DNA of 33,842 nt, from assembly GCA_947479815.1 (NCBI GenBank), contig CANKAT010000030.1, positions 1 through 33,842 of the forward strand, read 5' to 3'. Positions within the stretch are counted from its first letter, which is position 1; every line of letters begins with the position of its first letter. Positions 9,066 to 33,819 of the stretch are shown here, in pieces. The position numbers were made by a program, and so were the translations under genes. Under the pieces are notes generated by a model that saw only the letters and a list, made by a program, of their open reading frames with translations, made no database searches and was not told where the DNA came from. The DNA is from Sphingobacteriaceae bacterium (GTDB taxonomy: Bacteria > Bacteroidota > Bacteroidia > Sphingobacteriales > Sphingobacteriaceae).

Positions 9066-10949
9066 ATGGCTGAATTAGAATATAGTGATGATAGTATTCG
9101 TTCTCTCGACTGGAAAGAGCATATCAGGCTACGGCCAGGGATGTATATCGGTAAGCTTGGTGATGGATCGGCCTATGACGATGGTATCTATGTTTTACTA
9201 AAGGAAATACTGGATAACTCAATCGATGAATTCGTGATGGGTTCAGGCAAGACTATCGAGATCACAGTTAGTGATAAAAAAGTCTCTATACGTGATTATG
9301 GCAGAGGAATTCCACTTGGGAAAGTGATTGATTGCGTTTCCAAGATCAATACTGGAGGTAAATACGACTCAAAAGCTTTTCAAAAGTCTGTAGGTTTAAA
9401 TGGTGTAGGTACCAAGGCTGTCAACGCTTTATCATCTCATTTCATGGTTCAGTCATACCGTGACGGACGTACAAAAAAAGCGGAATTTGAGCAGGGGATA
9501 CTCATTAATGATCTTCCTGAAACTGAAACTACTCAGCGCAATGGAACGGCAGTAGTTTTTTACGCTGATGAAACCATTTTCAGAAATTATCGCTATATCC
9601 CCGAATTCGTAGAAAGTATGATTTGGAACTATGTGTTCCTTAATTCAGGTTTGACGATCAATTTTAACGGCACTAAATTTTTCTCTGAAAGGGGGCTATA
9701 TGACCTACTAACCAGAAATACGGATACTGAAACCCTTCGTTACCCGATTATCCACCTCATTGGGGATGATATAGAAGTTGCCATGACCCATGGACAACAA
9801 TACGGTGAGGAATATTATTCGTTTGTGAATGGTCAGCATACCACTCAGGGAGGAACTCATCAGGCAGCATTTAGGGAGGCAGTAGTTAAAACAATTCGTG
9901 AATTTTATAAAAAGGAGTTCGATGCTTCGGATGTCAGGGCTTCAATCGTATCGGCTATATCAATCAGAGTACAGGAACCTGTGTTTGAATCACAAACTAA
10001 AACTAAGCTGGGTTCACAGAATATTGCTCCTGATGGCCCTTCGGTACGTACCTTTATTAATGATTTTATTAAGAAAGCTCTAGATGATTATTTACATAAG
10101 CACCCTGCAGATGCTGATTCACTTTTAAAACGGATACTTCAATCGGAACGAGAGCGTAAAGACATTGCCGGAATTAAAAAATTGGCCAATGAACGGGCAA
10201 AAAAAGCATCTCTGCACAATAAAAAACTAAGAGACTGCAAGATACATTTTGAAGATAGCCATGAGCGTAAGCAAGATACAACCTTGTTTATCACAGAGGG
10301 AGACTCAGCAAGTGGTTCTATCACTAAATCGCGTGATGTGATGACCCAGGCGGTATTCAGTTTAAAAGGAAAACCACTCAACTGCTACGGCCTAACCAAA
10401 AAAGTGGTGTATGAGAATGAGGAATTCAACCTGTTGCAACATGCTCTGAATATTGAGGACGGGCTTGATAATTTACGCTACAATAACATTGTGATCGCTA
10501 CCGATGCAGACGTTGATGGAATGCATATCCGCTTATTGCTGATGACATTTTTTCTTCAGTTCTTTCCTGATCTTGTAAAAGCAGGACATGTTTCAATTCT
10601 TCAAACCCCACTTTTTAGGGTGCGTAATAAAAAGGAAACTATTTATTGTTATAGTGATGAGGAAAGGCAGCGGGCCATCAGGAAATTGGGTAATAAACCT
10701 GAAATAACACGATTTAAAGGGCTGGGAGAGATATCTCCAGTAGAATTTGAGTTATTTATAGGTAAGGATATTCGTCTTGATCCTGTGATTTTGTCTAAAG
10801 AACAAAGTATTAAGAACCTGTTAGAATATTATATGGGTAAAAATACGCCCGACAGGCAGCAACATATTATCAAAAACCTTCGGGTGGAAGTTGATTTTGT
10901 TGGCGAAGAAGAGCCTCAGGAAGCGGTGGCCGAATTGTTGACAGATTGA
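9066..10949 (+). CDS. parE: DNA topoisomerase IV subunit B
   Basis: The ATPase subunit of topoisomerase IV, which drives unlinking of daughter chromosomes together with ParC (encoded at 13210). The GHKL ATPase domain shows LRPGMYIG, a DNSIDEF segment with the catalytic Glu/Asn region, DYGRGIP and [14 protein letters not shown]. The TOPRIM domain shows ITEGDSASG (around residue 410) and [11 protein letters not shown] (around 478), which bind Mg2+ at the cleavage site. At 627 residues it lacks the large insert of some GyrB proteins. The match of the partner to ParC favours ParE over GyrB. cdd begins 3 bases after the stop, so the two are co-transcribed. Confidence 0.93.
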
Positions 10950-13209: not shown

Positions 13210-16200
13210 ATGAGTGAAGAAATAGAAAATACGGAAGGCGAAAACATAAATACGGAAGGTTTACATAATGTAATATCGCTTTCTGGTTTATATGAAAACT
13301 GGTTTTTAGATTATGCATCCTATGTGATCCTAGATCGTGCGGTTCCTCATATTCATGATGGGCTGAAGCCTGTGCAACGCCGTATTTTACATTCGCTAAA
13401 AGAAATGGATGATGGCCGCTTCAATAAGGCGGCAAACGTAATTGGCAATACAATGAAGTATCACCCACATGGTGATGCATCGATAGGTGATGCCATGGTT
13501 CAGATTGGACAAAAGAATTTGTTGATTGATACACAGGGAAATTGGGGCGACCCGATAACCGGTGATTCTGCTGCAGCTCCCCGTTACATCGAAGCCAGAT
13601 TATCCAAATTTGCTATTGAAGTTGTTTTTAATCCGGATACAACTGAATGGCAGAGTAGTTATGATGGAAGAAATAAGGAGCCGGTTACGCTTCCTGTTAA
13701 ATTCCCTCTTTTGCTTGCCCAGGGTGCCGACGGCATTGCTGTTGGTCTGGCAACCAAGATTATGCCTCATAATTTCATGGAACTAATTGATGCTTCCATA
13801 GAAGTTTTGAGAGGCAATCGACCAGACTTGCTTCCTGATTTTCAAATGGGTGGCATGGCAGATTTTAGTAATTATAGTGAAGGTATGCGTGGTGGGAAGA
13901 TCAGAGTGCGCGCAAAGATCGTGGAGCGGGATAAAAAAACACTTGCTATAACTGAAATACCATATACAACAACTACCGGCGGATTAATAGACAGTGTGAT
14001 CGCTGCTAACGATAAGGGTAAGATCAAGATCAAAAAGATTGAGGATAACACTGCTAAAAATGTAGAGATCATCATTCATCTTGCTCCGGGAATTTCACCT
14101 GATGTGACTATTGATGCGCTTTACGCCTTTACAGATTGCGAAGTTTCAATTTCTCCAAATACCTGTATTATAAAAGGCGATAAGCCTTATTTCATGAGTG
14201 TGAATGATATTCTCATTGAAAGTACGCATCATACCAAAAACCTCCTGAAGCTTGAACTTGAAATAAAGCTTGCCGAGCTCAAGGAAAAGATATTTTTTAG
14301 TTCATTGCTTAAGATCTTTATACAGGAAGGAATGTATAAAAATCATGAGTATGAAAGTTCAGGTAATTTCGAGACAGTGGTAGAGGTGTTAAACAAACTC
14401 TTTGAACCATTCTTTCCGCAGTTTTATCGGGAAATACTTCCTGAAGACTATAAAAAGCTGATCGATAAGCCAATGAGTAGCATTACCCGTTTTGATCTTA
14501 AGAAATCGGATGAGCAATTGCTTTCATTGGAGAGTGACATTAAAGAAGTAAATAAGTTTCTGAAACACTTAACAGATTATGCCATTGCCTGGTTTGAAAA
14601 GTTGAGGGCTAAATACGGAAACGGTAGGGAGCGTAAAACAGAGATCAGAGCATTTGACAAGGTAGAAGCTTCAAAAGTGGCTTTAGCCAATGTTAAATTG
14701 TATATGAATCGTGAAGATGGATTTATTGGTACGGGATTACGTAAAGATGAATTTGTATGTGATTGTTCGGATCTGGATGAAGTGATCGTAATTAGGGAAG
14801 ATGGAAAGTTTAATGTTTCTAAAGTAGCTGAAAAGACTTTCGTTGGTAAGGGTATAGTGCATGCGCAGGTATTTAAAAAGAGTGATGAGCGTACTGTTTA
14901 TAATTTGATCTATAAGGATGGTGAAAATGGTACTTCCTTTATTAAAAGGTTCTCTGTTTTAGGTGTTACCCGCGAGAAAGAATACGACCTGACTAAGGGT
15001 TCAAAGGGCTCAAAAGTATTATACTTTACTGCAAATCCAAATGGTGAGGCTGAGATCGTAACTATTCAGTTAAAACCACATTCTAAACTTAAAAAGTTAC
15101 AGTTCGACATTGATTTTGCAGACCATGTGATTAAGGGACGCAGCTCAATGGGAAATATTGTAACTAAGTATCCTGTAAAAAAAGTCCTTCTAAAAAGTAA
15201 GGGTATATCAACATTATCAGGGCGCAAGATCTGGTTTGATGAAATTCTTAAGCGACTTAATGTAGATGGAAGAGGAAAATTCCTGGGTGAGTTTGATGGC
15301 GATGACCGAATATTGACGGTTAATCAGCAGGGAATTTACGAGCTGAGCAGCTTTGACCTAAGCAATCATTTTGACGACCATCTATTATTGATTGAGAAGT
15401 ATAATCCTGAAAAAATATTCGCATTGATCTATCTGGAAGGGAAATCAGGTAGCCATTATTTGAAGCGATTTGTATTTGAAAATACCTCTATTGGGAAGAA
15501 ATTGAGTGTGATTACTGAAGATTCTGGTTCGAAATTGGTCTTTATTTCAGGACATTCAAAGCCGATGATCAGGCTTGAGGTTATCAAGGGTAAAACAAAA
15601 ATTTCGGAAGTTTCTGATATCGATCTTGCTGATGCTATTGAGGTAAAGGGAATGAAGGCAATGGGTAACAGACTGAGTCCACATGAAGTAAAAAACATTG
15701 AAATTCTCCATTCACAGGTTGAAGAGGAAGAAGATGAAATAGTGGTTGAAGAGGTTCCCGATATTACTTTATCTGTACAACAGGCTCCTGGATTGAATCA
15801 GGCAAACCTAGTTCCTGTGCCTGCCATAGCTAGTGAAGTTAGTGACGATGATAGACCTCGAACAATTAATGAATTAGCTGAAAACTTTGAAATAGCTGAT
15901 TCGGATATAGCGACAAAGGATGAAATTACATCTGAAGTACAGATGGAGAATTTCAAGGAAACGAGTGTATCAGCGCCTGAATATTTAGAAGAGGACACCA
16001 TTTCTGAACCAGAAATAATTCCGGAAATTCAGATTGAAAGTTCGAAAGAGGCAGTTAAATCTGCAAAGGCAAAAAAATCTGCTTTGAGTGCTGAGGCTAC
16101 TCCTGAAAGAGTCGCAGAAGTACAAGATGAAAGCGTAAAAGAGCCTGAAAAACCAATTAAAAAAATTGATTTTGAAATTACCAACCCGGATGATCTGGAT

Positions 16201-16233
16201 ATTGATGATAAGGGTCAGCTGGGATTGTTCTAA
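13210..16233 (+). CDS. parC: DNA topoisomerase IV subunit A with long acidic tail
   Basis: The DNA-cleaving subunit of topoisomerase IV. The winged-helix part has KPVQRRILHS and the quinolone-resistance region YHPHGDASIGDAM. AAPRYIEARL places the catalytic tyrosine at residue 126. The tower and coiled-coil regions follow, then a beta-pinwheel C-terminal domain up to about residue 834. From about 835 to 1007 the protein is low-complexity and rich in Glu, Ser, Ala and Val, so it is probably disordered. It ends in DDKGQLGLF. That last pentapeptide resembles the QL(S/D)LF sliding-clamp-binding consensus. At 1007 residues it is longer than E. coli ParC (about 750). The partner parE is 2.3 kb upstream on the same strand. 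Confidence 0.93.
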   Translation: MSEEIENTEGENINTEGLHNVISLSGLYENWFLDYASYVILDRAVPHIHDGLKPVQRRILHSLKEMDDGRFNKAANVIGNTMKYHPHGDASIGDAMVQIGQKNLLIDTQGNWGDPITGDSAAAPRYIEARLSKFAIEVVFNPDTTEWQSSYDGRNKEPVTLPVKFPLLLAQGADGIAVGLATKIMPHNFMELIDASIEVLRGNRPDLLPDFQMGGMADFSNYSEGMRGGKIRVRAKIVERDKKTLAITEIPYTTTTGGLIDSVIAANDKGKIKIKKIEDNTAKNVEIIIHLAPGISPDVTIDALYAFTDCEVSISPNTCIIKGDKPYFMSVNDILIESTHHTKNLLKLELEIKLAELKEKIFFSSLLKIFIQEGMYKNHEYESSGNFETVVEVLNKLFEPFFPQFYREILPEDYKKLIDKPMSSITRFDLKKSDEQLLSLESDIKEVNKFLKHLTDYAIAWFEKLRAKYGNGRERKTEIRAFDKVEASKVALANVKLYMNREDGFIGTGLRKDEFVCDCSDLDEVIVIREDGKFNVSKVAEKTFVGKGIVHAQVFKKSDERTVYNLIYKDGENGTSFIKRFSVLGVTREKEYDLTKGSKGSKVLYFTANPNGEAEIVTIQLKPHSKLKKLQFDIDFADHVIKGRSSMGNIVTKYPVKKVLLKSKGISTLSGRKIWFDEILKRLNVDGRGKFLGEFDGDDRILTVNQQGIYELSSFDLSNHFDDHLLLIEKYNPEKIFALIYLEGKSGSHYLKRFVFENTSIGKKLSVITEDSGSKLVFISGHSKPMIRLEVIKGKTKISEVSDIDLADAIEVKGMKAMGNRLSPHEVKNIEILHSQVEEEEDEIVVEEVPDITLSVQQAPGLNQANLVPVPAIASEVSDDDRPRTINELAENFEIADSDIATKDEITSEVQMENFKETSVSAPEYLEEDTISEPEIIPEIQIESSKEAVKSAKAKKSALSAEATPERVAEVQDESVKEPEKPIKKIDFEITNPDDLDIDDKGQLGLF

Positions 16234-21444: not shown

Positions 21445-22032
21445 ATGGAAAAGAAACTTCAACGTAACCAACAGGATAAAATGATTGCTGGTGTTTGCTC
21501 CGGACTGGCAGATTATTTTGATGTGGATGTAACCTGGGTTAGGATTGCTTTTGTTATAGCTGTTATGGCAGGTGCTTCAGGTTTGCTTGCTTACCTAGTA
21601 CTTTGGATTGCCGTTCCAAGAAAACCTTATCTGCCTGATTATGCAAAGTTTACAACAAATTACAACGTAAATGACCCTGCAAATTCATCTAATCCAATAC
21701 CGGGAATGGCATATTCAAAACCTAAGAAAAGAGATACGGGTAAGGGACGTTTAATTGTAGGAGTTATTTTTATAGTATTTGGAACATTCTTTCTTCTGAA
21801 CGAATTTAATTTGATCCCTGATTGGGTTGAGTTTCACAATTTATGGCCATTGATATTAATAGGAATGGGAATTTATACGCTTTCTGGAGCGTTAAATAAT
21901 AATAAATGGAAAGATGATTTGGCTCAATTTACCACATTTAGTGAGCCTGAAGTAAAGCCTGAAACTCCCGAAAATAAAGGTACTGAAGAAACTAACCCAA
22001 ATACTGACGATTCTACTAATAAGACAATATGA
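21445..22032 (+). CDS. PspC-domain protein with a second LiaF-type membrane segment
   Basis: A 195-residue membrane protein. Residues about 1-62 are a PspC domain: LQRNQQDKMIAGVCSGLADYF, then DVTWVRIAFV and a membrane helix ending LWIAVP. This is the domain of phage-shock envelope-stress sensors. Residues about 95-145 are a second hydrophobic unit (LIVGVIFIVFGTFFLLNEF, then LWPLILIGMGIY) of the DUF5668/LiaF-TM type. The tail is hydrophilic and Glu/Thr/Asn-rich. It overlaps the next gene by four bases (ATGA). It is probably an inner-membrane stress-response component. Confidence 0.88.
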   Translation: MEKKLQRNQQDKMIAGVCSGLADYFDVDVTWVRIAFVIAVMAGASGLLAYLVLWIAVPRKPYLPDYAKFTTNYNVNDPANSSNPIPGMAYSKPKKRDTGKGRLIVGVIFIVFGTFFLLNEFNLIPDWVEFHNLWPLILIGMGIYTLSGALNNNKWKDDLAQFTTFSEPEVKPETPENKGTEETNPNTDDSTNKTI

Positions 22033-22967
22033 AAACCGGAAAAATTGTTTGGGGATTGATCTACATTTTCATAGGATCGATATTCCTACTGGATAACTTT
22101 AACGTAATAGACTTTTATTGGGTTTCAGTATGGCGGTTTTGGCCAGTGATCTTTATTTTAATCGGTACTAATATGCTGCTCAGTAGGTTTGGGAATCAAA
22201 AGGTAGTTCCTGCTTTGGTTGCAGCAATTACATTGGTAGCCTTAGCGCTGATCGGATATCAGGGTTCTCGTCCCAATGACGATAGCAGGTGGATCAGCTT
22301 CCAATTCGACAATGAAGATAATGGTAATGATTCAACACTATATACTCCGAATTATTTTATAGAACCTTATGGAGGTGCCAAGAGAGCAGAATTAACTATT
22401 CAGGGCGGAGCTACCAGTTTTAAACTTCAGGATACAACCTCGAGTCTTTTTGAAGCAGATGTTAAAAAACAATTTGCAAAATACACTCTCACAAAAAGTA
22501 TCAGTGATTCTGTTGAAGTTTTAAATTTCAAGATGCGCAGCGGTGAGCAACGCTGGAATCTGGATGAAATGGAGAATAATAAAACGAATATTCGTTTGAA
22601 TTTGACTCCGGTTTGGGATATTCATATAGGGATGGGAGCAGGAGAGGCTATTTTCGATCTGACACCTTATAAAGTAAGTTCCCTTAAATTTGAGGGTGGA
22701 GCCGCTTCATTTGAAGCAAAAATTGGTTCGCTTCAACCGCTAACCAGTGTCACTGTTGAAACAGGAGTTGCAAATGTTGAGATTGATGTGCCATCTGAAT
22801 CAGGGTGCCGCATTGTAGTAGATAGTGGACTTTCATCCAAAGATTTCATCGGCTTTAATAAACAGTCTGATGGCACCTACCAGACCAGCAATTACAACAC
22901 AGCAGCAAAAAAAATCAATATTAGTCTGAAAGGTGGACTCTCTTCATTTGAAGTTAGAAAGTATTAA
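22029..22967 (+). CDS. LiaF-like membrane protein (DUF5668 plus beta-helical C-terminal domain)
   Basis: A 312-residue protein. The N-terminal two-helix unit (IVWGLIYIFIGSIFLLDNF, then FWPVIFILIGTNMLLSRFG) repeats the second membrane unit of the PspC gene just upstream. After an acidic linker, residues about 115-312 show recurring Gly-Gly-Ala strands: TIQGGATSFKL, GMGAGEAIFDL, FEGGAASFEA, ETGVANVEIDV and KGGLSSFEV. This fits the LiaF C-terminal / DUF4097-like beta-helix fold. LiaF-type proteins modulate envelope-stress signalling, so this pair is likely an operon with that role. An intrinsic terminator follows. Confidence 0.83.
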   Translation: MKTGKIVWGLIYIFIGSIFLLDNFNVIDFYWVSVWRFWPVIFILIGTNMLLSRFGNQKVVPALVAAITLVALALIGYQGSRPNDDSRWISFQFDNEDNGNDSTLYTPNYFIEPYGGAKRAELTIQGGATSFKLQDTTSSLFEADVKKQFAKYTLTKSISDSVEVLNFKMRSGEQRWNLDEMENNKTNIRLNLTPVWDIHIGMGAGEAIFDLTPYKVSSLKFEGGAASFEAKIGSLQPLTSVTVETGVANVEIDVPSESGCRIVVDSGLSSKDFIGFNKQSDGTYQTSNYNTAAKKINISLKGGLSSFEVRKY

Positions 22968-23012
22968 CCCCATATACCCCGAATAACCGGAGGTAATTGA
23001 TAGACTTAGGCC

Positions 23013-23041
23013 AGACTTTGGATTTAATCCAAAGTCTTTTT
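23013..23041 (+). terminator. Intrinsic terminator, just before the RDD gene
   Basis: A perfect 12-bp stem (AGACTTTGGATT at 23013-23024 with its complement at 23026-23037), then a run of T. It lies 46 bases after the LiaF-like stop and only 15 bases from stem to the RDD ATG. Confidence 0.83.
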
Positions 23042-23052
23042 ATATATAAAAA

Positions 23053-23658
23053 ATGAAAGAATATAGTGTAGTTATTGAAGGAAAGCCCAGTGGTCCGTAT
23101 GCGCTAGCAGAATTGAAGGGACTAAAAATCAAGACCGGAACTTTTGTGAAATCAGAGGAGATGGATGACTATAAAGAAGCACATGAGGTTCCAGAATTGT
23201 GTGAATTTCTTGGGTTAAAAGCTCATGTTAGTCTTCCTCAGTATTTTGCTAGTCTGGATGTAAGGCTGCTGGCTGTGATCATCGACTATTTTATCATTTT
23301 TGGGATATATTGTGTTATCGCTACCGCAGTAGTACTCTTTATTGATGAAAAGCAATTACGAATTATTGTATCATTAGCCGGCCTAGGCATCATTCCTGAA
23401 GCAAAATTTATCTACAGTATTGTGATGGAATCTTCAATACGGCAAGGTACTTGGGGTAAGGTTTTAATGGGATTGAAGGTTAGCGATGAAAAGGGGAATC
23501 CCATAACATTTAGTCGCTCCTTGGTAAGAAACCTGAGTAAAATACTCAGTACAGCAACTCTTGGATTAGGCTATCTGATGGGCTTTTTTGATAAACGACA
23601 ACAGTGTTTGCATGATAGGATCGCAGGAACTGTGGTGATTAAGGATAGGCTGATTTGA
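23053..23658 (+). CDS. GYF_2 - RDD family membrane protein
   Basis: A 201-residue protein. The N-terminal part (residues 1-50, GKPSGPYALAELKGLKIKTGT, then a short acidic segment) fits the GYF_2/DUF4339 domain, a peptide-recognition module. Residues about 60-200 are an RDD domain: DVRLLAVIIDYFIIF, a second helix, QGTWGKVLMGLKVSDEKG, RSLVRNLSKIL and a late helix before the final HDRIAGTVVI. RDD proteins are inner-membrane, mostly of unknown function, some linked to ion or solute transport. Its ATG lies 15 bases after the terminator stem of the upstream unit, so its promoter is unclear. A 13-copy heptamer array starts at the base after its stop codon. Confidence 0.85.
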   Translation: MKEYSVVIEGKPSGPYALAELKGLKIKTGTFVKSEEMDDYKEAHEVPELCEFLGLKAHVSLPQYFASLDVRLLAVIIDYFIIFGIYCVIATAVVLFIDEKQLRIIVSLAGLGIIPEAKFIYSIVMESSIRQGTWGKVLMGLKVSDEKGNPITFSRSLVRNLSKILSTATLGLGYLMGFFDKRQQCLHDRIAGTVVIKDRLI

Positions 23659-24934: not shown

Positions 24935-25696
24935 TTACCTAGTATCTATAACGATTTCAGCATAAACTCCGCGACAGTCCATTTCAAACTCTAAGTCTTT
25001 CACTGGCGGTCTATTGTAATGCCAGTCAATACCACTTAATGCTGCGCCACGTTTTACAATTTCGTTCGCCATTACGTGGTGAATGTCATGGATAGTATAC
25101 AATTGGGTTGCTGTAGAATCTGCCCAATTAAAGCCAAGACCAGCCATTCGACGTTCCATCTCATTAAGTACCCAACGTCCCTTTTTCATTAAGCCCTCTT
25201 TGGATAGGTCACCAAGACTAATACTGTGAGTACGATAATCACTCATGCCCTCTGGAGCTTCAGCACTACCAGCGATAACAAAAGAGGGTTTTGCCTTGGC
25301 ATCAGGCACTGTATAAGTAAAAGCATGAATACTCGGACTCAATGGTTTAGTCAATTCTGGACAGACATTTGAGCGAGATATCGGATTGTCACCACCCTCC
25401 TCGTAAATACCCCAGGCTTTTAAAGTGCCCATGTAAAGGTTATTAAAGTCAACAAAGCCTTGTTCGGTAAATGGCTCGGGTGAACGTAACTCGCAAGCTC
25501 CAAATGCAGCGAGCGGACGACCTAAAGTTTCGAGATGTTGTTGGATGCGTAAAAAGCCCTCGATTAGTGGCAGCGGCCGACTGAATCGTACACGTTCTAA
25601 TCTATAACCATCTTGTGCCGTTATACCGGCAGAATACTGCCTTACGCCTCGAAGATAACGATATGATCCAGGTTCAAAAATTTTTGTATCAGACAT
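24935..25696 (-). CDS. Putative tandem RidA/YjgF-like protein
   Basis: A 253-residue cytosolic protein without signal peptide. I do not recognise it with certainty. Both halves recall the RidA fold. The first half has IQQHLETLG, then FNNLYMGTLKAWGI and NPISRSNVCPE. The second has LNEMERRMAGLGFNWADSTATQLYTIHD and closes with RPPVKDLEFEMDCRGVYAEIVI, very like the RidA ending that bears the substrate carboxylate-binding Arg and the final Glu. RidA-type proteins hydrolyse reactive enamines/imines, and some relatives are aminomuconate deaminases. That role here is inference. It stands alone between the DUF1080 gene and the tldE terminator, flanked on both sides by hairpins sharing a CACCAACCA core. 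Confidence 0.5.
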   Translation of the reverse strand: MSDTKIFEPGSYRYLRGVRQYSAGITAQDGYRLERVRFSRPLPLIEGFLRIQQHLETLGRPLAAFGACELRSPEPFTEQGFVDFNNLYMGTLKAWGIYEEGGDNPISRSNVCPELTKPLSPSIHAFTYTVPDAKAKPSFVIAGSAEAPEGMSDYRTHSISLGDLSKEGLMKKGRWVLNEMERRMAGLGFNWADSTATQLYTIHDIHHVMANEIVKRGAALSGIDWHYNRPPVKDLEFEMDCRGVYAEIVIDTR

Positions 25697-25739: not shown

Positions 25740-25781
25740 GCTGAGAGCTAAGATAGTGAAAATAGGGAAAAGGTTTTAAAA

Positions 25782-25815
25782 TTTAGGTGGTCGTTGAGAA
25801 CAACCACCACCTAAA
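25782..25815 (-). terminator. Terminator-like hairpin after tldE1
   Basis: TTTAGGTGGT pairs perfectly with ACCACCTAAA. Inward there is one C-C mismatch, four more pairs (GTTG/CAAC) and loop AGAA. It starts 12 bases past the tldE1 stop. On the minus strand it is followed by ATTTTAAAA. Confidence 0.7.
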
Positions 25816-25827
25816 TCAAAAGGTATG

Positions 25828-27162
25828 CTATACCGCGTCTGAGAGCGAAGAGAATGTAAAATCTCTGATCTTCATTGGCGGTATCAGTGCATTGATTCCA
25901 GATTCACCACTCACTGTTCGTTCTGGTTTGCCTAGGGCTTCGAGATTATTTAGCATAATAATTGGACTTTCATTGAACCTGAAATTCTTTACAGGGAATT
26001 TAATTTCCCCATTTTCAATATAGAAAGTACCATCACGGGTTAATCCGGTAAGTAATACTGTTTGAGGATCTACACTTCGGATATACCATAAACGGGTAAC
26101 TAAAATACCTTTCTCGGTGCTTTTGATCAGATCTTCTAGCGATTGATTAGTGCCGGCCATAATCACAGCTTCAGGTGTAGGAATGGCTTTTACACCTTTC
26201 TTTTGTGCCCAATAGCGTGAGTAGAACAGGTTTTTCATTACGCCATTCTCAATCCAGTTTACTTTTTCCTGAGCTCTTCCATCGCCACTCCAGGTACTTG
26301 TTGGGAGTTCAGTATTGAAGGGGTCTGAATAAATATTGACACGTTCATCCACTAGTTTTTCACCAAGTTTAGTTAAACCACCAGGTTTACTCATAAAGCT
26401 TCTTCCTTCATCCGCCTGACGGCCATCCATTCCAAAAAATAAATTTTCAAGAAGCACAAGGGCGGCGGCAGGCTCAAGAATCACCGTGTATTTTCCTGGC
26501 TCTATTGCTCTGGCTGTTGCAGAGCGCGCAGCTTTGATTGCAGCTGATGCTGAAGCAGCCTTTACGTCCAGTTTTTTGAAGTCGTTATACGATTTGGTTG
26601 CATAGCCAGAACCTTTTCCATCTTCGGTACGTAGCGTAACATTGAAGCTGACGCCAGTAGAAGTATTATAGGCAAAAAGCCCTTTTGAATTCATCATTGC
26701 TGAATAGGAGGTATTATTTTCCAGAAAGCCGGCAGCGGTCAACTTATTTTCTTTTGAGATCTGCAGGCTTGCTGCAACAGCATCAGCACGGTCTTTTGGA
26801 CTCATATCTGCCGTTGCCTGAACAAAGGTTGCCGATTCAGGATAGGTCTGCGGACCCATAAATGAAACAAATTCAGGGTTTTCAGGTGCCAGCATAGCTA
26901 GTTCTTCGGCACGTTGAACAACCTTTCGAAGCGACTCATCGTCATATTCATTGATTGTTGCTACTCCCATCTTTTTGCCGAAGGCAGATGATACCACCAA
27001 ACTATTGGAGCTGACCCCACCGCTGGTTGAAACAGAGTTTCTGGCATATCGTATATTTCCTGCATCAGAACCACTGAGGTTCACCTCACATTCATCTGCT
27101 TTGGAATAGCTCAACACTTTCTTTAAAAGTGCCTGAGCCTGTTCTTTACTTAGTATTGACAT
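25828..27162 (-). CDS. TldE/PmbA-like protein, copy 1
   Basis: A 444-residue member of the TldD/TldE family, of the TldE (PmbA) type. It lacks the HExxxH metal motif and should be the non-catalytic partner of the adjacent TldD. Recognisable blocks are KADECEVNLSGSD, IRYARNSVSTSG, AFGKKMGVATINEYD, ARAIEPGKYTVILEP and GLTRDGTFYIENG, then PVKNFRFNESPI. There is no signal peptide, unlike the TldD partner. It starts 10 bases after the tldD1 stop and is followed by a hairpin terminator. In E. coli the TldD-TldE heterodimer degrades unfolded peptides, matures microcin B17 and clears CcdA; the substrate here is unknown. Confidence 0.85.
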   Translation of the reverse strand: MSILSKEQAQALLKKVLSYSKADECEVNLSGSDAGNIRYARNSVSTSGGVSSNSLVVSSAFGKKMGVATINEYDDESLRKVVQRAEELAMLAPENPEFVSFMGPQTYPESATFVQATADMSPKDRADAVAASLQISKENKLTAAGFLENNTSYSAMMNSKGLFAYNTSTGVSFNVTLRTEDGKGSGYATKSYNDFKKLDVKAASASAAIKAARSATARAIEPGKYTVILEPAAALVLLENLFFGMDGRQADEGRSFMSKPGGLTKLGEKLVDERVNIYSDPFNTELPTSTWSGDGRAQEKVNWIENGVMKNLFYSRYWAQKKGVKAIPTPEAVIMAGTNQSLEDLIKSTEKGILVTRLWYIRSVDPQTVLLTGLTRDGTFYIENGEIKFPVKNFRFNESPIIMLNNLEALGKPERTVSGESGINALIPPMKIRDFTFSSLSDAV

Positions 27163-27172
27163 GGTCTTATCT

Positions 27173-28807
27173 TCAGATTTTTCTTGCTGTATTGATTACA
27201 TTAACTCCATTAAAACGGGTAGTAGCACATCCATGTGAAACTGCACTAGATTGCATTGGTTGACCCTTGCCATCAAAGAATGATCCACCTAAGCGATAAT
27301 CACGTTCATCGCACATATCGCTGCATGCATTCCAGAATTCCTGTGTATTTGCCTGGTAGGCAACATCTTTCAGCATCCCTGTAATTTTTCCTTCTTTGAT
27401 TTCATAATATAGCTGCCCACCAAATTGGAAATTATAGCGTTGCTGATCGATTGAGAAAGATCCGTCGCCAATGATATAAATTCCTTTCTCAACATTTTTG
27501 ATTAGGTCATCAATGCTTTTCTGTTTCTTACCCGGCAATAGGGATACATTTGGCATCCGCTGAAACTGTACACTGCTCCAGTTATCGGCATAGCAACAAC
27601 CTTGAGATTCATTCAGGCCAACAATATGTGCCTGATCGCGGATAGCCTGGTAATTGACTAGAACACCATCCTTGATAATATCCCATTTTTTTGTTCCAAC
27701 ACCTTCATCGTCATAACCTACTGCACCAAGTGAGCCGGGTTGTGTTTTATCACCCACGATGTTTACTAAGTCGCTTCCATATTTGAAGTTTTTAGACTGC
27801 CATTTATCTAAGGTCAGGAAGCTTGTTCCTGCAAAGTTTGCTTCATAACCGAGTACTCTGTCTAATTCAGTTGGGTGACCAGTAGATTCATGTATGGTTA
27901 ACCAAAGGTGAGAGGGATCTAAAACAAGGTCGTATTTTCCTGCTTCCACAGATTTGGCAGTTATTTTTTGTCCAACTTGAGTAGCGGCAGCTTTTGCATC
28001 TTCGAGCATGTCGTATCTTCCTTTATAGAGGGTAGTAACTCCCTGGATCTTATCCTGAGGACGGGCTTCTAGGTATTCGTATCCCATACCCATTGGCGCA
28101 CTTAAAGAATTTCGGGTTTCGAATTTTCCAGACTTTGCATCGATTTTTGTTAAGAAGAAAGTAGGCCAAATACGGTGAATGTCCTGATCGATATAGGAAC
28201 CATCTGTAGAGGCAAAGTATTTCTGTTCATTGACCAGAAAAAGGACCGAATTGGCATAATTTGCTCCGCCCTTCAGCGCTGCATCATTTACCGAAAGTAA
28301 AAGATCAACTTTTTCTTTCATCGGTACTTCGAATGCATTTTTTTCAATTGGTGCTTTCCAACTCACTTCTCCATATCCTTTTTGTGGCGCCAGTTGTACC
28401 GGTTCCGTGAGCAGACGAGAATTTTCTTTGGCTATAGCTACAGCTAATTCAGCTGCTTTTGCGATACTGTCATTATCCATTTTGTCGGTAGCGGCAAATC
28501 CCCAGCTTCCGTTTGCAATTACGCGAATACCCATCCCATAAGATTCAGTATTCACAATGTTTTCCACTTTGTCTTCACGGGTAACCACAAACTGATTCAG
28601 GTACCGCCCAATGCGAACATCCGTATAAGTGGCACCTCTAGAACGTGCAGCATTCAGTGCTACATCAGACATCCGTTTTTTAAGTACCGGATCAATCCGG
28701 TCTAGAGCAGCATCCAGCGGAACTGAATTACCCCAAACAGGAATAGACGGAAGCATAGCTGCAGCAGCACCCAGCCCCGTAAGGTGAACAAAATCTCTTC
28801 TTCTCAT
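27173..28807 (-). CDS. TldD-like metallopeptidase with twin-arginine signal, copy 1
   Basis: A 544-residue protein of the TldD type. The metal-binding motif HESTGH (starting at residue 306) lies in LWLTIHESTGHPTELDR. The N-terminus MRRRDFVHLTGLGAAAAML contains RRxFV and a weakly hydrophobic Gly/Ala stretch, a good twin-arginine export signal. The C-terminal region has CDERDYRLGGSFFDGKGQP and AVSHGCATTRFNGVNV. In classical TldD the GK-GQ motif is preceded by a Cys metal ligand; here it is Asp. Ten bases separate it from tldE1. Upstream is a 384-bp gap with a terminator of the previous unit, a possible promoter and a 46-codon frame that overlaps this start by ATGA. Confidence 0.87.
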   Translation of the reverse strand: MRRRDFVHLTGLGAAAAMLPSIPVWGNSVPLDAALDRIDPVLKKRMSDVALNAARSRGATYTDVRIGRYLNQFVVTREDKVENIVNTESYGMGIRVIANGSWGFAATDKMDNDSIAKAAELAVAIAKENSRLLTEPVQLAPQKGYGEVSWKAPIEKNAFEVPMKEKVDLLLSVNDAALKGGANYANSVLFLVNEQKYFASTDGSYIDQDIHRIWPTFFLTKIDAKSGKFETRNSLSAPMGMGYEYLEARPQDKIQGVTTLYKGRYDMLEDAKAAATQVGQKITAKSVEAGKYDLVLDPSHLWLTIHESTGHPTELDRVLGYEANFAGTSFLTLDKWQSKNFKYGSDLVNIVGDKTQPGSLGAVGYDDEGVGTKKWDIIKDGVLVNYQAIRDQAHIVGLNESQGCCYADNWSSVQFQRMPNVSLLPGKKQKSIDDLIKNVEKGIYIIGDGSFSIDQQRYNFQFGGQLYYEIKEGKITGMLKDVAYQANTQEFWNACSDMCDERDYRLGGSFFDGKGQPMQSSAVSHGCATTRFNGVNVINTARKI

Positions 28808-28944
28808 TTATTTTTTAGGTTAGTATTTTTAAGGGGTAGTCTTATTAGCAAAAACTCAACAGGTAATTGTACTGTTTTTGAGAAGCTTTTGAGCGGTAAC
28901 AAATTAAATATATAAATAATTTGTCTTTCAATGAGGTTAAGCAT
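28804..28944 (-). CDS. Possible 46-residue leader peptide before tldD1
   Basis: On the minus strand an ATG at 28944 opens a frame of 46 codons starting MLNLIERQIIYIFNLLPLKS and ending LKNTNLKNK. Its TGA overlaps the tldD1 ATG as ATGA, the usual sign of coupled translation. The product would be small, basic and leucine-rich. The region is A+T-rich and such frames occur by chance; a possible -7 box at about 28900 would lie within it. There is no signal peptide and no family recognised. Confidence 0.25.
   Translation of the reverse strand: MLNLIERQIIYIFNLLPLKSFSKTVQLPVEFLLIRLPLKNTNLKNK
28899..28924 (-). promoter_or_regulatory. Inverted repeat and weak promoter-like element upstream of tldD1
   Basis: ACAAATTA (28899-28906) and TAATTTGT (28917-28924) are perfect 8-bp inverted copies, 10 bases apart. 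On the minus strand TTAATTTG (28907-28900) matches seven of eight positions of the TA-TTTG type -7 box, about 93 bases before tldD1. It is the most likely control point for the tldD1-tldE1 unit. The rest of the 28808-29191 gap shows only the terminator and the 46-codon frame. Confidence 0.35.
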
Positions 28945-29133
28945 GTTTTTAAAATTTTGAATTTTAGACGCAGACTGAAACAGAATGTTACTTGTATTCC
29001 AAATGCCTTTTTTCAGATTTTTCTTTCCCCCCTAGTATAATTTCCGGTATCAGTAGTCATAAATGGTCAGTTAAGTTATCTTAAATTACTATTTAGCAGA
29101 CGGATTGTGATTAGCCGAAGCGACCTAAAAATC

Positions 29134-29172
29134 AAAAAAATACCGGCAAAGGTTTTACGCTAATGCCGGTAT
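29134..29172 (-). terminator. Intrinsic terminator after tldD2
   Basis: A perfect 9-bp stem, ATACCGGCA (29140-29148) with TGCCGGTAT (29164-29172), and a 15-base loop. On the minus strand it is followed by seven T. It lies 19 bases past the tldD2 stop and separates the two tld units. Confidence 0.85.
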
Positions 29173-29191
29173 CCAATTAGTTTATCTTTAG

Positions 29192-30826
29192 CTATATTTT
29201 TCTGCCGGTATTAATCACATTTACACCTTTAAATAAGGTAGTAGCACATCCATGTGATACTGCGCTTACTTGACTAGGCTGACCTTTTCCGTCGAAGAAA
29301 GAACCGCCCAGGCGATAATCTTTTTCATCACAAATGGCTGAACAAGAGTTCCAGAATTCTTGGGTGTTTGACTGATAAGCCACATCTTTTAACAAGCCGC
29401 CGATTTTTCCATCGTTCACTTCAAAACAAAGTTGTCCGCTAAATTGGAAATTATAACGTTGCTGATCGATAGAGTAGGAGTTACGCCCAAAAATATAAAT
29501 TCCTTTCTCTACGTTTTTAACCATTTCATTTGCACTCAGTGGAGTTTTTCCGGCTTTGAGTGAAACATTAGGCATGCGCTGAAATTGAACCTTATCCCAA
29601 CTGTCGGCATAGCAGCAGCCCTGCGATTCGGGAAGTCCCAAAATATGTGCTTGGTCGCGAATGGTTTGGTAATTGACCAGAATTCCGTCCTTAATGATAT
29701 CCCAGTTTTTGCATTTAACCCCTTCGTCATCATAGCCAACTGCTGCAAGAGATCCTTTTTCTGTTTTATCGGCTTCAAAGTTGACGATCTTACTGCCAAA
29801 GTTGAATTTCTTGCTTTCCCATTTATCCAGAGTTAGGAAACTAGTACCGGCATAATTTGCCTCATATCCTAAAACGCGGTCAAGCTCAGAAGGGTGTCCT
29901 ACAGATTCATGAATGGTCAGGAAAAGATTAGTTGGATCAATGATCAGATCATATTTTCCGGGCTCTACTGGTTTTGACCTTAATTTTTCATCTACATGTC
30001 GGGTTGCTGTAACGGCATCCTCCAGCATATTATACCGTTTTTTGTAAATAGTGAACAGTCCGTCAATCTCTTCTTCTTTCTTCGGATTCAGGTACTCGTA
30101 ACCCATTCCCATCGGTGAACTTAGCGAGTTGCGAGTTTCAAATTTTCCTGATTTAGAATCGATTTTTGTTACGGTAAAGGTTGGCCAAAGCCTGTGAATA
30201 TCCTGATCAATGTAAGAACCTTCGGTTGAGGCAAAGTACTTCTGTTCATTCACCAGAAACAAGGATGAATTAACAAAATTAGCCCCACCTTTTAAGGCAG
30301 CATCATTTACTGCAAGCAGTAATTCTGTTTTTTCTTTGATCGGAATCTCGAATGAGTTCTTTTCAAAAGGTGTTGTCCAACTAACTTCACCATATCCCTT
30401 TTGGGGGGCAAGTCTGACCGGCTCGGTCAGCAGTTTGGAGTTTACCTTCGCAATCTGTACTGCCGATGCCGCTGCTTTTGCAATAGTATCCTCGGTTAGG
30501 TTATCGATTGCTGCAAAGCCCCAGCTTCCATTAGCAATAACTCGAATTCCCATTCCGTAAGATTCAGTGTTGCTGATGCTCTCAACGCGGGTTTCACGGG
30601 TAGTGAGAAACTGGTTCAGATACCTACCGATGCGAACATCAGCATACGTAGCCCCTTTAGATCGGGCAGCATTCAATGCGATATCTGCCAATTTTTTCTT
30701 CAGACTGGCATCAACCGGAATTAAAGCATCCTCAATAGCAATATCACGGCCTATGACCGGGATGGACTGCAGCATGGATGCTCCAACACCTATTCCTGAA
30801 ACGTATAAAAAATCCCTTCTTCTCAT
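29192..30826 (-). CDS. TldD-like metallopeptidase with twin-arginine signal, copy 2
   Basis: A 544-residue paralog of copy 1, co-linear without visible gaps. It keeps the metal motif, here HESVGH within LFLTIHESVGHPSELDR. The N-terminus MRRRDFLYVSGIGVGASML holds RRDFL, an almost ideal twin-arginine motif, before a Gly-rich hydrophobic segment. The C-terminus has CDEKDYRLGGSFFDGKGQP and AVSHGCATTLFKGVNVINTGRKI. The usual Cys before GK-GQ is Asp. It is the last gene of the unit tldD3-tldE2-tldD2, 38 bases after tldE2, and has no TldE of its own downstream. It may share the TldE2 partner. Confidence 0.86.
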   Translation of the reverse strand: MRRRDFLYVSGIGVGASMLQSIPVIGRDIAIEDALIPVDASLKKKLADIALNAARSKGATYADVRIGRYLNQFLTTRETRVESISNTESYGMGIRVIANGSWGFAAIDNLTEDTIAKAAASAVQIAKVNSKLLTEPVRLAPQKGYGEVSWTTPFEKNSFEIPIKEKTELLLAVNDAALKGGANFVNSSLFLVNEQKYFASTEGSYIDQDIHRLWPTFTVTKIDSKSGKFETRNSLSSPMGMGYEYLNPKKEEEIDGLFTIYKKRYNMLEDAVTATRHVDEKLRSKPVEPGKYDLIIDPTNLFLTIHESVGHPSELDRVLGYEANYAGTSFLTLDKWESKKFNFGSKIVNFEADKTEKGSLAAVGYDDEGVKCKNWDIIKDGILVNYQTIRDQAHILGLPESQGCCYADSWDKVQFQRMPNVSLKAGKTPLSANEMVKNVEKGIYIFGRNSYSIDQQRYNFQFSGQLCFEVNDGKIGGLLKDVAYQSNTQEFWNSCSAICDEKDYRLGGSFFDGKGQPSQVSAVSHGCATTLFKGVNVINTGRKI

Positions 30827-30864
30827 AACGATAATTAATTAATTCTGAGTTAATATATGATGAT

Positions 30865-32181
30865 TTATACTGCGTCAGAAAGAGATGAGAAGGTGAAATC
30901 TCTGATTTTCATAGGTGGTACGATCATATTTCCGCTACGTTGTGGTTTTCCTAAAGCTTCCACATTGTTTAGCATGATGATTGGACTTTCATTAAACCTG
31001 AAATTTTTCACAGGAAACATAATCTTTCCGTTTTCAATATAAAATGTACCATCACGTGTCAGTCCGGTAAGTAGTAAAGTTTGAGGATCAACACTTCTGA
31101 TATACCAGAAACGTGTAACCAATATGCCTTTTTCAGTGCTTTTGATTAGGTCTTCGAGTGAAGCTGTTCCACCTTCCATAATGATTCTGTTAGCACCAGC
31201 TATAGGTTTTACATTTTTTTGCTGTGCCCAGTAACGGGAATAGCTCAAATTTTTGACTACACCTTTTTCAACCCAGGTAACTTTTTCTTGTGGAAGACCA
31301 TCGCCATTCCATGTTCCTGAAGGTAAATCAGCATTGAATGGATCTGAATAGATGTTTACCTGCTCATTGAACAATTGTTCACCTAAGCGGGTGCCTCCAC
31401 CTTTTTTACTCATGAAACTTCTGCCTTCTTCTGCACTTCTTGCATCGAAGCCTCTAACCATATTGGATAGCATATCACTTGCAGCAAGTGGTTCTAGAAT
31501 TACCGTGTATTTGCCAGGTTCAATAGCTCTTGCACCTGCCGATCCATTCGCTTTTGCTGATGCAACTTTAGTCAATGCCAGTGTATCCAGTTTGCTGATG
31601 TCATTAAAACTTTCGCTTACATAACCTGATCCAGTACCGGCTTGATTACGCGTGGTTACAGAAAATGAAACGTCAGTATCTGTATTGTAAGCGAACAAAC
31701 CTTTTGAATTCATGATCGCTCTGAAACTGGTAGAATTCTCAAGAAATCCTGCTGCCTCTAGGTTAGCTGCTTTGGCAACTTCCAAACTCTTTCTTACTGC
31801 TTCAGCTCTGATGTCGGGATTGATAGCAGCCGTAGCGGCATTATAGGTAATGGATTCTGCAAAAGTTTTAGGACCTTCCAGAGAAACGTACTCCGGGTTA
31901 GGTGGTGCCAGCTGTGCCAGTTCTTCAGATCTTCTTACTACTTTTTCAAGTGATGCATCATCAAATTCATTGATCGTTGCAGAACCTGTTTTTTTACCGA
32001 ATGTAGAGCTGATTGCCAGTCCCATTGTACTGATATCACCAGCTGTTGAAACCGCGTTTCTTGCATAGCGGATATTTCCGCCCTCGGTACCATTCAAACT
32101 TACCTCGCATTCATCTGCTTTAGAAAAACTCAATGCCTTCTTTAGAATTGCTTGAGCTTCTGCTTTACTTATTATGCCCAT
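30865..32181 (-). CDS. TldE/PmbA-like protein, copy 2
   Basis: A 438-residue paralog of tldE1 with the same blocks: KADECEVSLNGTEGG, IRYARNAVSTAG, FGKKTGSATINEFDD, ARAIEPGKYTVILEP, GLTRDGTFYIENG and PVKNFRFNESPI. There is no HExxxH and no signal peptide. It differs from copy 1 mostly in the middle (RGFDARSAEEGRSFMSKKGGG) and by a shorter stretch before the conserved PPMKIRDFTFSSLSDAV end, which is identical in both. It starts 3 bases after the tldD3 stop, so the two are closely coupled. Confidence 0.85.
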   Translation of the reverse strand: MGIISKAEAQAILKKALSFSKADECEVSLNGTEGGNIRYARNAVSTAGDISTMGLAISSTFGKKTGSATINEFDDASLEKVVRRSEELAQLAPPNPEYVSLEGPKTFAESITYNAATAAINPDIRAEAVRKSLEVAKAANLEAAGFLENSTSFRAIMNSKGLFAYNTDTDVSFSVTTRNQAGTGSGYVSESFNDISKLDTLALTKVASAKANGSAGARAIEPGKYTVILEPLAASDMLSNMVRGFDARSAEEGRSFMSKKGGGTRLGEQLFNEQVNIYSDPFNADLPSGTWNGDGLPQEKVTWVEKGVVKNLSYSRYWAQQKNVKPIAGANRIIMEGGTASLEDLIKSTEKGILVTRFWYIRSVDPQTLLLTGLTRDGTFYIENGKIMFPVKNFRFNESPIIMLNNVEALGKPQRSGNMIVPPMKIRDFTFSSLSDAV

Positions 32182-32184
32182 ATC

Positions 32185-33819
32185 TTATATTTTTCTTGCT
32201 GTATTAATTACATTAACTCCGTTAAATCGTGTTGTTGAACTACCGTGAGATACGGCATTCGACTGGCTTGGCTGACCCTTGCCATCATTGAAGGCGCCAC
32301 CAAGACGGTAATCACTTTCATCGCAAACCGCACCAACTGCATTCCAGAATTCCTGAGTGTTTGATTGGTAGGCTACATCTTTTAGCATTCCAACAATCTT
32401 GCCTTCTTTGATCTCGTAGAACATTTGGCCGCCAAACTGGAAATTATAACGTTGTTGGTCAATAGAGAATGAACCATCACCAATAATATACACCCCTTTT
32501 TCAACATTTTTGATCATGTCATCTACGCTTAACTTCTCTTTTCCAGGTTGAAGAGATACATTCGGCATGCGCTGGAACTGAACATCTGCCCAGCTTTGAG
32601 CATAGGAACATCCCTGAGATTCCTTTAACCCAATCATGTGTGCCTGGTCGCGGGTTGCTTGGAAATTAACAAGGACTCCATCTTTTATAATATCCCATTT
32701 CTTGCATGCTACACCTTCATCATCGTACCCTACTGCTCCTAATGAGGTTTTTTCGGTTTTATCTGCAACAACATTCACCAGCTTATTGCCAAAGTTGAAT
32801 TTTTTGGAGTTCAACCGGTCTAAACTTAAGAAGCTGGTACCTGCATAATTCGCTTCATAGCCCAATACGCGATCCAATTCTGTAGGATGACCTACAGATT
32901 CATGGATAGTTAACCATAGGTGTGAAGGGTCAAGTACCATATCATATTTGCCAGGCTCAACCGATTTAGCTTTCATTTTCTGGTCTACATTAACTGTAGC
33001 TGATTTGATATCTTCCAGAATATCATAACGATCTTTATACCGGGTCACAATACCTTTAACCTTACTGCTTTCTTTGGGTTCCAAATATTCATAGCCCATA
33101 CCCATTGGGGTACTCAGCGACTTGATCGTATCAAACTTTCCGCTGCTACGGTCAATTTTTGTTACCGTGAAATTCGGGAAGATTCGATGGATGTCTTGAT
33201 CAATATAGGATCCGTCTGTTGATGCAAAATATTTTTGCTCGTTAACTGCGAAAATCACTGAATTGACAAAGCTTGCACCACCTGACATAGCTAGTGCATT
33301 GGTTGCAAGAAGAAGATCAACTTTTTCTTTTACGGGCACTTCAAATGCATTTTTCTCAATTGGCGATTTCCAGCTTACCTCACCATATCCCTTTTGAGGC
33401 GCCAACTGAACGGGCGCTCCCTGAATTTTGGAATTTGCTTTGGCAACGGCAACTGCTTTTTCAGCAGCTTTTGCAATATCTTCTTTGGTAACATTGTTTG
33501 TTGAGGCAAAACCCCAGCATCCATTCGCAATTACGCGTACACCAACACCATACGATTCTGTATTTGATACACCCTGTACCCGATTTTCGCGTGTAGCAAC
33601 AAACTGGTTCAGGTAGCGTCCAATACGAATATCTGCATAACTGGCACCTTTTGCCCTTGCCGCATTCAATGCTACATCGGCTAATTCCTTTTTTATTTTC
33701 ACATCCACCACGTTCAATGCTTCCATTGGATCGATTGGATTACCAAAAAGTGCTAGGTTTGGTAGCATTAATGCCCCTGTACCCATCCCACTCAGGTAGA
33801 GAAATTCACTTCTTTTCAA
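32185..33819 (-). CDS. TldD-like metallopeptidase, copy 3, TTG start
   Basis: A 544-residue paralog starting at a TTG (33817-33819), with no ATG nearby and a strong Shine-Dalgarno upstream. The metal motif HESVGH is kept in LWLTIHESVGHPTELDR. The N-terminus reads MKRSEFLYLSGMGTGALML: it aligns with the other two copies but the twin arginine is replaced (R-S where they have R-R), so Tat export is doubtful. The C-terminus has CDESDYRLGGAFNDGKGQP and AVSHGSSTTRFNGVNV; the HGC cysteine of the other copies is Ser here, and Asp stands before GK-GQ as in them. It is the first visible gene of the unit with tldE2 and tldD2; its promoter lies beyond the window. Confidence 0.86.
   Translation of the reverse strand: MKRSEFLYLSGMGTGALMLPNLALFGNPIDPMEALNVVDVKIKKELADVALNAARAKGASYADIRIGRYLNQFVATRENRVQGVSNTESYGVGVRVIANGCWGFASTNNVTKEDIAKAAEKAVAVAKANSKIQGAPVQLAPQKGYGEVSWKSPIEKNAFEVPVKEKVDLLLATNALAMSGGASFVNSVIFAVNEQKYFASTDGSYIDQDIHRIFPNFTVTKIDRSSGKFDTIKSLSTPMGMGYEYLEPKESSKVKGIVTRYKDRYDILEDIKSATVNVDQKMKAKSVEPGKYDMVLDPSHLWLTIHESVGHPTELDRVLGYEANYAGTSFLSLDRLNSKKFNFGNKLVNVVADKTEKTSLGAVGYDDEGVACKKWDIIKDGVLVNFQATRDQAHMIGLKESQGCSYAQSWADVQFQRMPNVSLQPGKEKLSVDDMIKNVEKGVYIIGDGSFSIDQQRYNFQFGGQMFYEIKEGKIVGMLKDVAYQSNTQEFWNAVGAVCDESDYRLGGAFNDGKGQPSQSNAVSHGSSTTRFNGVNVINTARKI

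Follow-up and report, generated by a model that had tools for sequence, protein, structure and literature searches.

The window analysed here, 33,842 nucleotides that make up the whole of contig CANKAT010000030.1 (C30) in a 3.2 Mb assembly (GCA_947479815.1) of a Sphingobacteriaceae bacterium, carries five consecutive minus-strand genes of TldD/TldE-type peptidases: three TldD (D1, D2 and D3) and two TldE (E1 and E2). The genome, labelled G000 below (labels with G, C and L denote genomes, contigs and loci), probably belongs to the genus Daejeonella. Comparison with other genomes suggests that such genes form part of a Bacteroidota module, TldD-TldE-DUF4159-MoxR-DUF58-BatA-DUF4175-c1, in which the TldD/TldE peptidases would be exported by the twin-arginine translocation (Tat) system and matured or driven by the block of neighbouring genes. 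For this explanation as a whole we estimate a probability of about 0.55.

The five genes, the signals at their N termini and the terminators that close their two units are as follows.

25775..25820, minus strand: stem-loop terminator after E1, closing unit D1-E1 (dG -23.3 kcal/mol, z -7.1, shorter and broken T tail).
25828..27162, minus strand: E1, TldE-type, 444 amino acids (aa), without HExxxH and without signal peptide.
27173..28807, minus strand: D1, TldD-type, 544 aa, HESTGH, with Asp (in DGK) where E. coli has its Cys454 ligand.
28730..28807, minus strand: Tat-like signal of D1, MRRRDFVHLTGLGAAAAMLPSIPVWG, with probable cleavage after V-W-G.
29125..29175, minus strand: intrinsic terminator after D2, closing unit D3-E2-D2 (dG -15.8 kcal/mol, z -3.3, T-rich tail).
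29192..30826, minus strand: D2, TldD-type, 544 aa, HESVGH, DGK.
30749..30826, minus strand: Tat-like signal of D2, MRRRDFLYVSGIGVGASMLQSIPVIG, with probable cleavage after V-I-G.
30865..32181, minus strand: E2, TldE-type, 438 aa, without signal peptide, beginning 3 nt past the D3 stop codon.
32185..33819, minus strand: D3, TldD-type, 544 aa, TTG start after GGAGG, HESVGH, DGK; the final gene before the contig end.
33742..33819, minus strand: signal-like N terminus of D3, MKRSEFLYLSGMGTGALMLPNLALFG, in which Ser replaces the second Arg of the Tat pair.

The domains PF19289, PF19290 and PF01523 were found above the curated cut-offs in all five proteins, and no other genes of the G000 assembly matched PF19289. 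Identity is 68-72% among D1-D3 and 68% between E1 and E2, and therefore the likeness reflects paralogy and not chance. Open reading frame and Pfam evidence thus agrees with the initial annotation, which had described three 544-residue TldD with HESxGH and two TldE (444 and 438 residues) without it as divergent paralogues in two units, D3-E2-D2 and D1-E1, each with a terminator. Both terminator sites fold, as listed; a simple terminator scan of the window listed the E1 site, did not list the D2 site, and gave 8 terminator-like sites in the window versus 7.4 expected from shuffles. Mixed pairings, also suggested there, are possible, since unit D3-E2-D2 holds one TldE for two TldD.

The same three domains, with HExxxH in TldD only, are present in E. 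coli TldD/TldE, the microcin B17 maturation protease (PDB 5NJ5). TldD of the window type differs in being longer (about 545 residues, 481 in E. coli), in its N-terminal signal-like stretch and in the Asp (DGK) that replaces Cys454 in nearly all of its members, and the genes, unlike those of E. coli, are adjacent, multiplied and MoxR-linked. The NCBIfam equivalog cut-offs (NF008006, NF008268) were not reached: D1-D3 scored 58-78 bits versus 513 for TldD and 131-149 bits versus 635 for archaeal TldD, and E1 and E2 scored 57 and 44 bits versus 438 for PmbA.

TldD/TldE genes were sought in 121 genomes of the taxonomic family, 38 of which had a PF19289 match. Of these, 37 genomes from 10 genera were counted as having genuine TldD/E, and one (G003) was set aside with a 23.7-bit PF19289 piece inside a 1079-codon frame. 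Clustering of open reading frames around TldD/E in the 37 genomes revealed five neighbour clusters (c1-c5) common to all 10 genera. According to Pfam analysis of one genome (G092), c5 encodes a MoxR-type ATPase (AAA_3), c4 a DUF58 protein, c3 a protein with the BatA N-terminal domain and c2 a DUF4175 protein (31.1 bits, cut-off 27.3), and a divergent gene adjoining MoxR encodes a DUF4159 protein; c1 had no Pfam match in this genome, nor did c2 in G087. Clusters c1 and c2 adjoin TldD/E in 36 of the 37 genomes, and the exception is G000, where the contig ends at that place; no c3, c4 or c5 was seen in 3, 8 and 12 of the 37, respectively, with many of the stretches read ending at that point. Because C30 stops 23 bases upstream of D3, the block that adjoins D3 in relatives is not visible in the window. 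It lies on another contig, C13, with the following genes.

C13 25-1809, minus strand: c1, an unnamed membrane protein, ending 25 bases from the contig end.
C13 1811-3937, minus strand: c2, DUF4175-like.
C13 3939-5456, minus strand: c3, BatA.
C13 5460-6347, minus strand: c4, DUF58.
C13 6393-7391, minus strand: c5, MoxR.
C13 7532-8155, plus strand: DUF4159.

The ends of C13 and C30 are compatible with a position of the block beside D3 in G000, the two contigs being not joined. In two other genomes of the sample (L085 in G110 and L086 in G111) the DUF4175-like c2 frame is interrupted by one in-frame stop codon.

The linkage extends beyond the family. Outside it, 26 genomes carry both c1 and TldD/E, and 22 of them were read (G351, G385, G401 and G500 were left out). 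The order TldD-TldE (once or more)-DUF4159-MoxR-DUF58-BatA-DUF4175-c1 is complete in 13 of the 22; G249 has TldD-TldE-DUF4159-MoxR only, the run in G305 goes as far as DUF4175, and in G367 and G265 TldD-TldE lies beyond c1, like in the family of the window. Starting from c2, TldD was found in 73 of 80 loci (the best 80 of 526 matches, a set that overlaps with the other TldD/TldE set), and the contigs of the other seven end inside c1/c2 or at most 171 nt after them.

The presence of c1 follows that of TldD/E closely. A profile of c1 (A1) matched 37 of the 121 family genomes, exactly the 37 with genuine TldD/E, so that the two are jointly present or absent in 120 of the 121, with the 23.7-bit match of G003 as the exception and with both states occurring within several genera. 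The profile of c2 (A2) matched 51 of the 121 genomes, full-length in the same 37 and only partially in 14, in 12 of these within frames of about 1100 codons. In a sample of 395 genomes of the phylum, c1 was found in 36, PF19289 in 99 and both in 33; no more than three candidates per genome were scored in the c1 search, so the c1 count may be low. The matches of c1 in the three genomes without TldD/E (G255, G407, G439) reached only E 1e-5 to 8e-4.

Evidence for export comes from the distribution of N-terminal signals. D1 and D2 begin with MRRRDF, i.e. with a twin arginine in the n-region. A search of the initial 70 codons of each frame in 128 TldD belonging to several types (G027, with Ns, omitted and E. 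coli not counted) found the motif RRx[FILMVYH] in 85, RKx[FILMVY] in 34 and KRx[DEN]F alone in 9, in each case followed by a weakly hydrophobic stretch; KRx starts make up 9 of the 36 D3 of the family. The 143 TldD of the c2-retrieved loci gave a similar picture (RR 81, RK 53, KRx 7, none 2). TldE lacked any such match in 96 of 99 cases, the other three (EARKI, EAKRI) lying within the first helix, and all 95 TldE of the c2-retrieved loci were without the motif. In 54 of 89 pairs the gap between TldD and TldE is at most 15 nt, too short for a TldE leader to have been missed there. A Tat-like signal was also seen on DUF4159 in G225 (NRKEFLKK, both TldD being RK) and G249 (TRRDFLKW, TldD being RR). 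G000 encodes TatC (one match) and TatA/B/E (three matches). The Tat-like signals on TldD, absent from TldE, and the co-inherited MoxR block had escaped the initial annotation, so its comparison with E. coli holds only in part.

Some further observations concern starts of these proteins. In the loci L042-L156 and the window, TTG is the start codon of 80 of 124 TldD (ATG 41, GTG 2, other 1), and ATG that of 90 of 93 TldE; the weak TTG start may hold the level of TldD below that of TldE. Other Bacteroidota (L144, L147, L148, L149, L155, L156) have a TldD-like type of 564-584 codons (1086 in L149) with HEIFGH and a Sec-like start. Seven loci (L141, L142, L143, L146, L152, L153, L154) hold pairs of other types, with a Tat-like TldD, a leaderless TldE and no MoxR match in the part read, and therefore the one-sided signal is wider than the module. 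One actinobacterial TldD (L239 8968-10494, plus strand, Nonomuraea; 41% identity, a single case) has no signal and carries CGK.

HExxxH is present in 272 of 272 TldD and in none of 195 TldE (E. coli included; the two sets overlap), and the positions of E. coli E263, E270 and D272 are kept in 129 of 129 aligned TldD. The Cys454 ligand is not kept: 266 of the 272 have DGK, five CGK and one neither. That this Asp corresponds to Cys454 is judged from the GK common to both and from the CGK of G384, MAFFT having placed it three columns away, with K opposite C454 and Q opposite K456; Asp is named as a possible replacement for the Cys ligand in the part of PMC5810440 consulted. The Asp ligand does not hold generally as a mark of export, as G344 and G384 carry Tat-like signals with Cys and the actinobacterial Cys homologue (one case) has no signal.

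Walker motifs were found in 26 of 26 MoxR, and the DxSxS string in 43 of 43 DUF58. A hydropathy scan of the block proteins of four genomes indicated two N-terminal helices and one C-terminal helix in c1 (in three of the four a charged loop separates the N-terminal pair). In BatA it showed one or two helices near the N terminus plus one at the C terminus in three of the four (in G000 the third is at 322-340), and in c2 two or three N-terminal helices; it found no helix in DUF58 and DUF4159 and, apart from one borderline stretch, none in MoxR. The bulk of c1, BatA and c2 probably faces the periplasm, to judge by the positive-inside rule. AlphaFold2 models of c1 and c2 have helices at matching places and beta-sandwich domains in both, with an amidotransferase-like fold in c1. 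The c2 model (mean predicted local distance difference test score 74.6) gave partial structure matches to Ig-like and similar beta-sandwich chains; the matches of the c1 model (84.3) were mixed, with a low overall template modelling (TM) score and one domain resembling glutamine amidotransferase (2a9v, TM by target 0.54). The structure search with these two models indicated no function. At least four His within 20 residues occur in 27 of 52 c2 proteins (16 of 16 from outside the family, where one has them N-terminally instead of in the loop, and 11 of 36 inside), compared with 1 of 52 c1, 3 of 49 BatA and 1 of 43 DUF58. This loop follows FLGEE and may be very rich in His and Asp, as in L128 of G417 (HDHDHDHDHEHDHDD); it is weak or lost in several genera. 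As a proof of metal delivery it was rejected, being weak in G000 and present in 11 of the 36 within the family.

We propose that TldD/TldE of this type are heterodimeric metallopeptidases that act on the outer side of the inner membrane. The catalytic subunit TldD (HExxxH plus Asp) would bear a twin-arginine-type signal peptide, and its export is quite probable. The leaderless TldE would fold with TldD in the cytoplasm and probably leaves as its passenger via the Tat translocase. A signal on TldD alone fits a heterodimer preformed in the cytoplasm, because Tat carries folded proteins. Metal may likewise enter the heterodimer while it is still in the cytoplasm, MoxR-DUF58 acting as a helper, like NorQ-NorD for nitric oxide reductase. 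The cytosolic MoxR AAA+ ATPase, the VWA protein DUF58 and the three membrane proteins would mature the peptidase, by metal loading or remodelling, or control its opening, and the membrane proteins of the block may hold or gate the enzyme outside; direct action of the block on TldD/E is a tentative suggestion to which we give slightly less than even odds. The paralogous pairs D3-E2-D2 and D1-E1 might represent several chambers with different substrates served by one maturation block. In its boldest form, the proposal would describe a trans-envelope peptidase machine, i.e. a TldD/TldE chamber exported by Tat, in which a MoxR-DUF58 motor on the cytoplasmic side powers metal loading or gating through BatA, DUF4175 and c1, with the paralogues as exchangeable chambers; this form is speculative and less likely than not.

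Parts of this scheme have counterparts in known systems. The mxa genes of methanol dehydrogenase are a MoxR AAA+/VWA maturation system, and the Bacteroides aerotolerance (Bat) operon holds MoxR, DUF58 and the BatA-type N-terminal domain, which are shared by the block of the window genome; the block differs in having no other gene between these three in G000 and G092, and G000 has a second MoxR, on C74. The likeness to the NorQ/NorD and mxa systems consists in MoxR with Walker motifs, DUF58 with DxSxS, a BatA-type membrane protein and a neighbouring metalloenzyme; here, however, the neighbour is a peptidase, and the DUF4175-like protein, c1 and DUF4159 come in addition. For nitric oxide reductase, metal insertion by MoxR together with VWA proteins is described in the parts of PMC9976466 and PMC13036017 consulted. 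The signal arrangement resembles that of the Tat hitchhiker complexes (PaoABC, hydrogenase, formate dehydrogenase), in which one subunit bears a twin-arginine signal and its partner has none, and passenger transport by Tat is described as established in the passages of PMC10924467 consulted. Those complexes are redox enzymes, whereas the case here would be a chambered peptidase with putative complex formation and export. The same passages of PMC10924467 contain no TldD, PmbA or MoxR, and none of the titles and abstract openings found in searches of the open literature links TldD/E to Tat export or to a MoxR block. DUF4175 appears, in the literature excerpts consulted, as an Acinetobacter cell-division protein; a search of the open literature found no paper on DUF4159.

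A number of observations weigh against the proposed module. As to the signals, D3 of the window has KRSEF and no twin arginine, and 7 of 63 genomes lack any RR TldD, G002 and G044 among them having only KRS; RK and single-arginine starts may be poorly functional or not Tat signals at all. The median of the best 15-residue hydropathy mean is 1.41 for TldD and 0.94 for TldE, with overlapping ranges, and a membrane-helix scan of three TldD found none. The signal-peptidase pattern matches 128 of 128 TldD, being too loose to weigh much, and the presence of TatC was rejected as a discriminating test, as 121 of 121 family genomes have it. The Tat-like signal of DUF4159 occurs in only 2 of 17 cases, and in none of 75 in the c2-retrieved loci. 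The binding of TldD to TldE within the window-type family is itself putative. As to the block, TldD/E were not seen beside it in 5 of the 22 genomes outside the family (G482, G253, G241, G198, G393), G305 has no c1 at the expected place, the His-rich loop of c2 is weak in G000 (3 His), and 66 of the 99 TldD/E genomes in the phylum sample lack c1, which other types of TldD/E thus do not seem to need. MoxR blocks also accompany many partners of unrelated kinds, and the one here might have a different client.

This last point leads to the alternative that survives best, one that we nevertheless regard as doubtful: TldD/E are exported, but the block serves another client, and the linkage is regulatory, for example through an envelope stress response common to both. 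MoxR-VWA systems act as helpers of several unrelated clients, a Tat-like TldD without the block in the part read is found in G344, G460, G275, G287, G279, G323 and G384, and the separation of TldD/E from the block in 5 of 22 genomes points the same way. The joint presence or absence of c1 and TldD/E in 120 of 121 family genomes speaks for a closer relation. Moreover, G000 has a second full MoxR on C74, besides a weak third match, so the block MoxR is not simply the general copy.

Another possible explanation, rather unlikely in our opinion, is that TldD is exported and works in the periplasm by itself or as a D-D dimer, with TldE kept inside as a regulator or a reserve partner. It would account for signals on TldD only and for three TldD per two TldE in the window, and an active TldD homodimer was reported for Sulfolobus, as quoted in the part of PMC5810440 consulted. 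Yet for E. coli the same text describes TldD as inactive without TldE and the TldD homodimer as unstable. Also against it, no more than 15 nt separate the start of TldE from TldD in 54 of 89 pairs, and in 21 of the 22 c1 genomes from outside the family both kinds are represented in the stretches read (G241 shows TldE only).

It is less likely still that the five genes encode ordinary cytoplasmic TldD/E, i.e. duplicated peptidases for unfolded peptides, in which TldD has an N-terminal stretch that does not function as a signal. All five proteins have the Pfam TldD/E domains, the studied form (consulted part of PMC5810440) is that of E. coli, where neither subunit has such a start, TldE has no signal and D3 lacks the twin arginine. 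On the other hand, 128 of 128 TldD, from several families, have a [R][RKS]x[FIL] start, a weakly hydrophobic run and a small-residue site, the actinobacterial homologue (41% identity, one case) starts without such a stretch, and the genes are absent from 84 of the 121 family genomes (G003 counted as absent) and are hence not housekeeping.

The distribution of the copies bears on their age. With copy kinds assigned by the best BLAST match to the window copies, the D3-E2 pair is present in 37 of the 37 TldD/E genomes of the family sample, the D1-E1 pair in 22 and a D2-like gene in 24; the units D3-E2-D2 and D1-E1 are often separated in other genera, and one locus (L049 5346-11331, minus strand, G001) has a unit of two adjacent TldE flanked by two TldD. 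In trees of 104 TldD and 83 TldE (11 close genomes omitted) the copies group by kind across genera, imperfectly: 5, 2 and 4 changes are needed for D1, D2 and D3, and 4 and 3 for E1 and E2, where a perfect clade would take a single change, and none of 500 label shuffles on the trees was as low in changes. Genomes of other families (e.g. G265, G367, G168) nest within the copy-kind clusters. We place no trust in the rooting of the TldD tree, the E. coli branch being too long. To judge from the trees and from orthologues spanning 10 genera, the copies are older than the genera, so the recent local expansion in this strain that had been proposed from the window sequence deserves practically no credence, the tandem arrangement of the genes notwithstanding. 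Nor are the five genes a housekeeping unit of all relatives, a possibility raised by the initial annotation as one that would remove the novelty: of the 13 genomes from this genus, 7 carry the complete set of five in the order of the window, one carries only D3-E2-D2 and 5 carry none.

The other genes of the window include, downstream of E1 (24935-25696, minus strand), a CnbZ-type 2-amino-5-chloromuconate deaminase (NCBIfam NF049982, 362.6 bits, cut-off 220); genes of equal length (253 aa) adjoin E1 in G086, G104 and G109. Genes for PspC, LiaF-like and RDD/GYF_2 proteins are consecutive at 21445-23658 (plus strand) and are partly retained near D1-E1 in other genera. The neighbours on the E1 side (short-chain dehydrogenase/reductase, ABC ATPase, PspC, LiaF-like, RDD and 3-keto-disaccharide hydrolase) were considered as members of the module and rejected, as they recur in only 2-6 of the 10 genera. 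Overlapping genes of lycopene cyclase and beta-carotene dioxygenase (272-2327, plus strand) point to the synthesis of retinal, and co-directional genes of GyrB/ParE-kind and GyrA/ParC-kind topoisomerase subunits (9066-10949 and 13210-16233, plus strand) have an OmpA-domain gene between them.

TldD/E have been studied as a peptidase of E. coli with few known substrates, and many MoxR ATPases are without a known client. If the trans-envelope machine were true, no earlier ATP-dependent envelope peptidase with the TldD fold would be known to us, and MoxR would gain a client of a new class. With a signal on TldD alone, Tat passenger transport can be put to a direct test for a peptidase. The module kept across families of Bacteroidota offers a concrete candidate client-helper pair and suggests that TldD/E can be an enzyme of the cell envelope.

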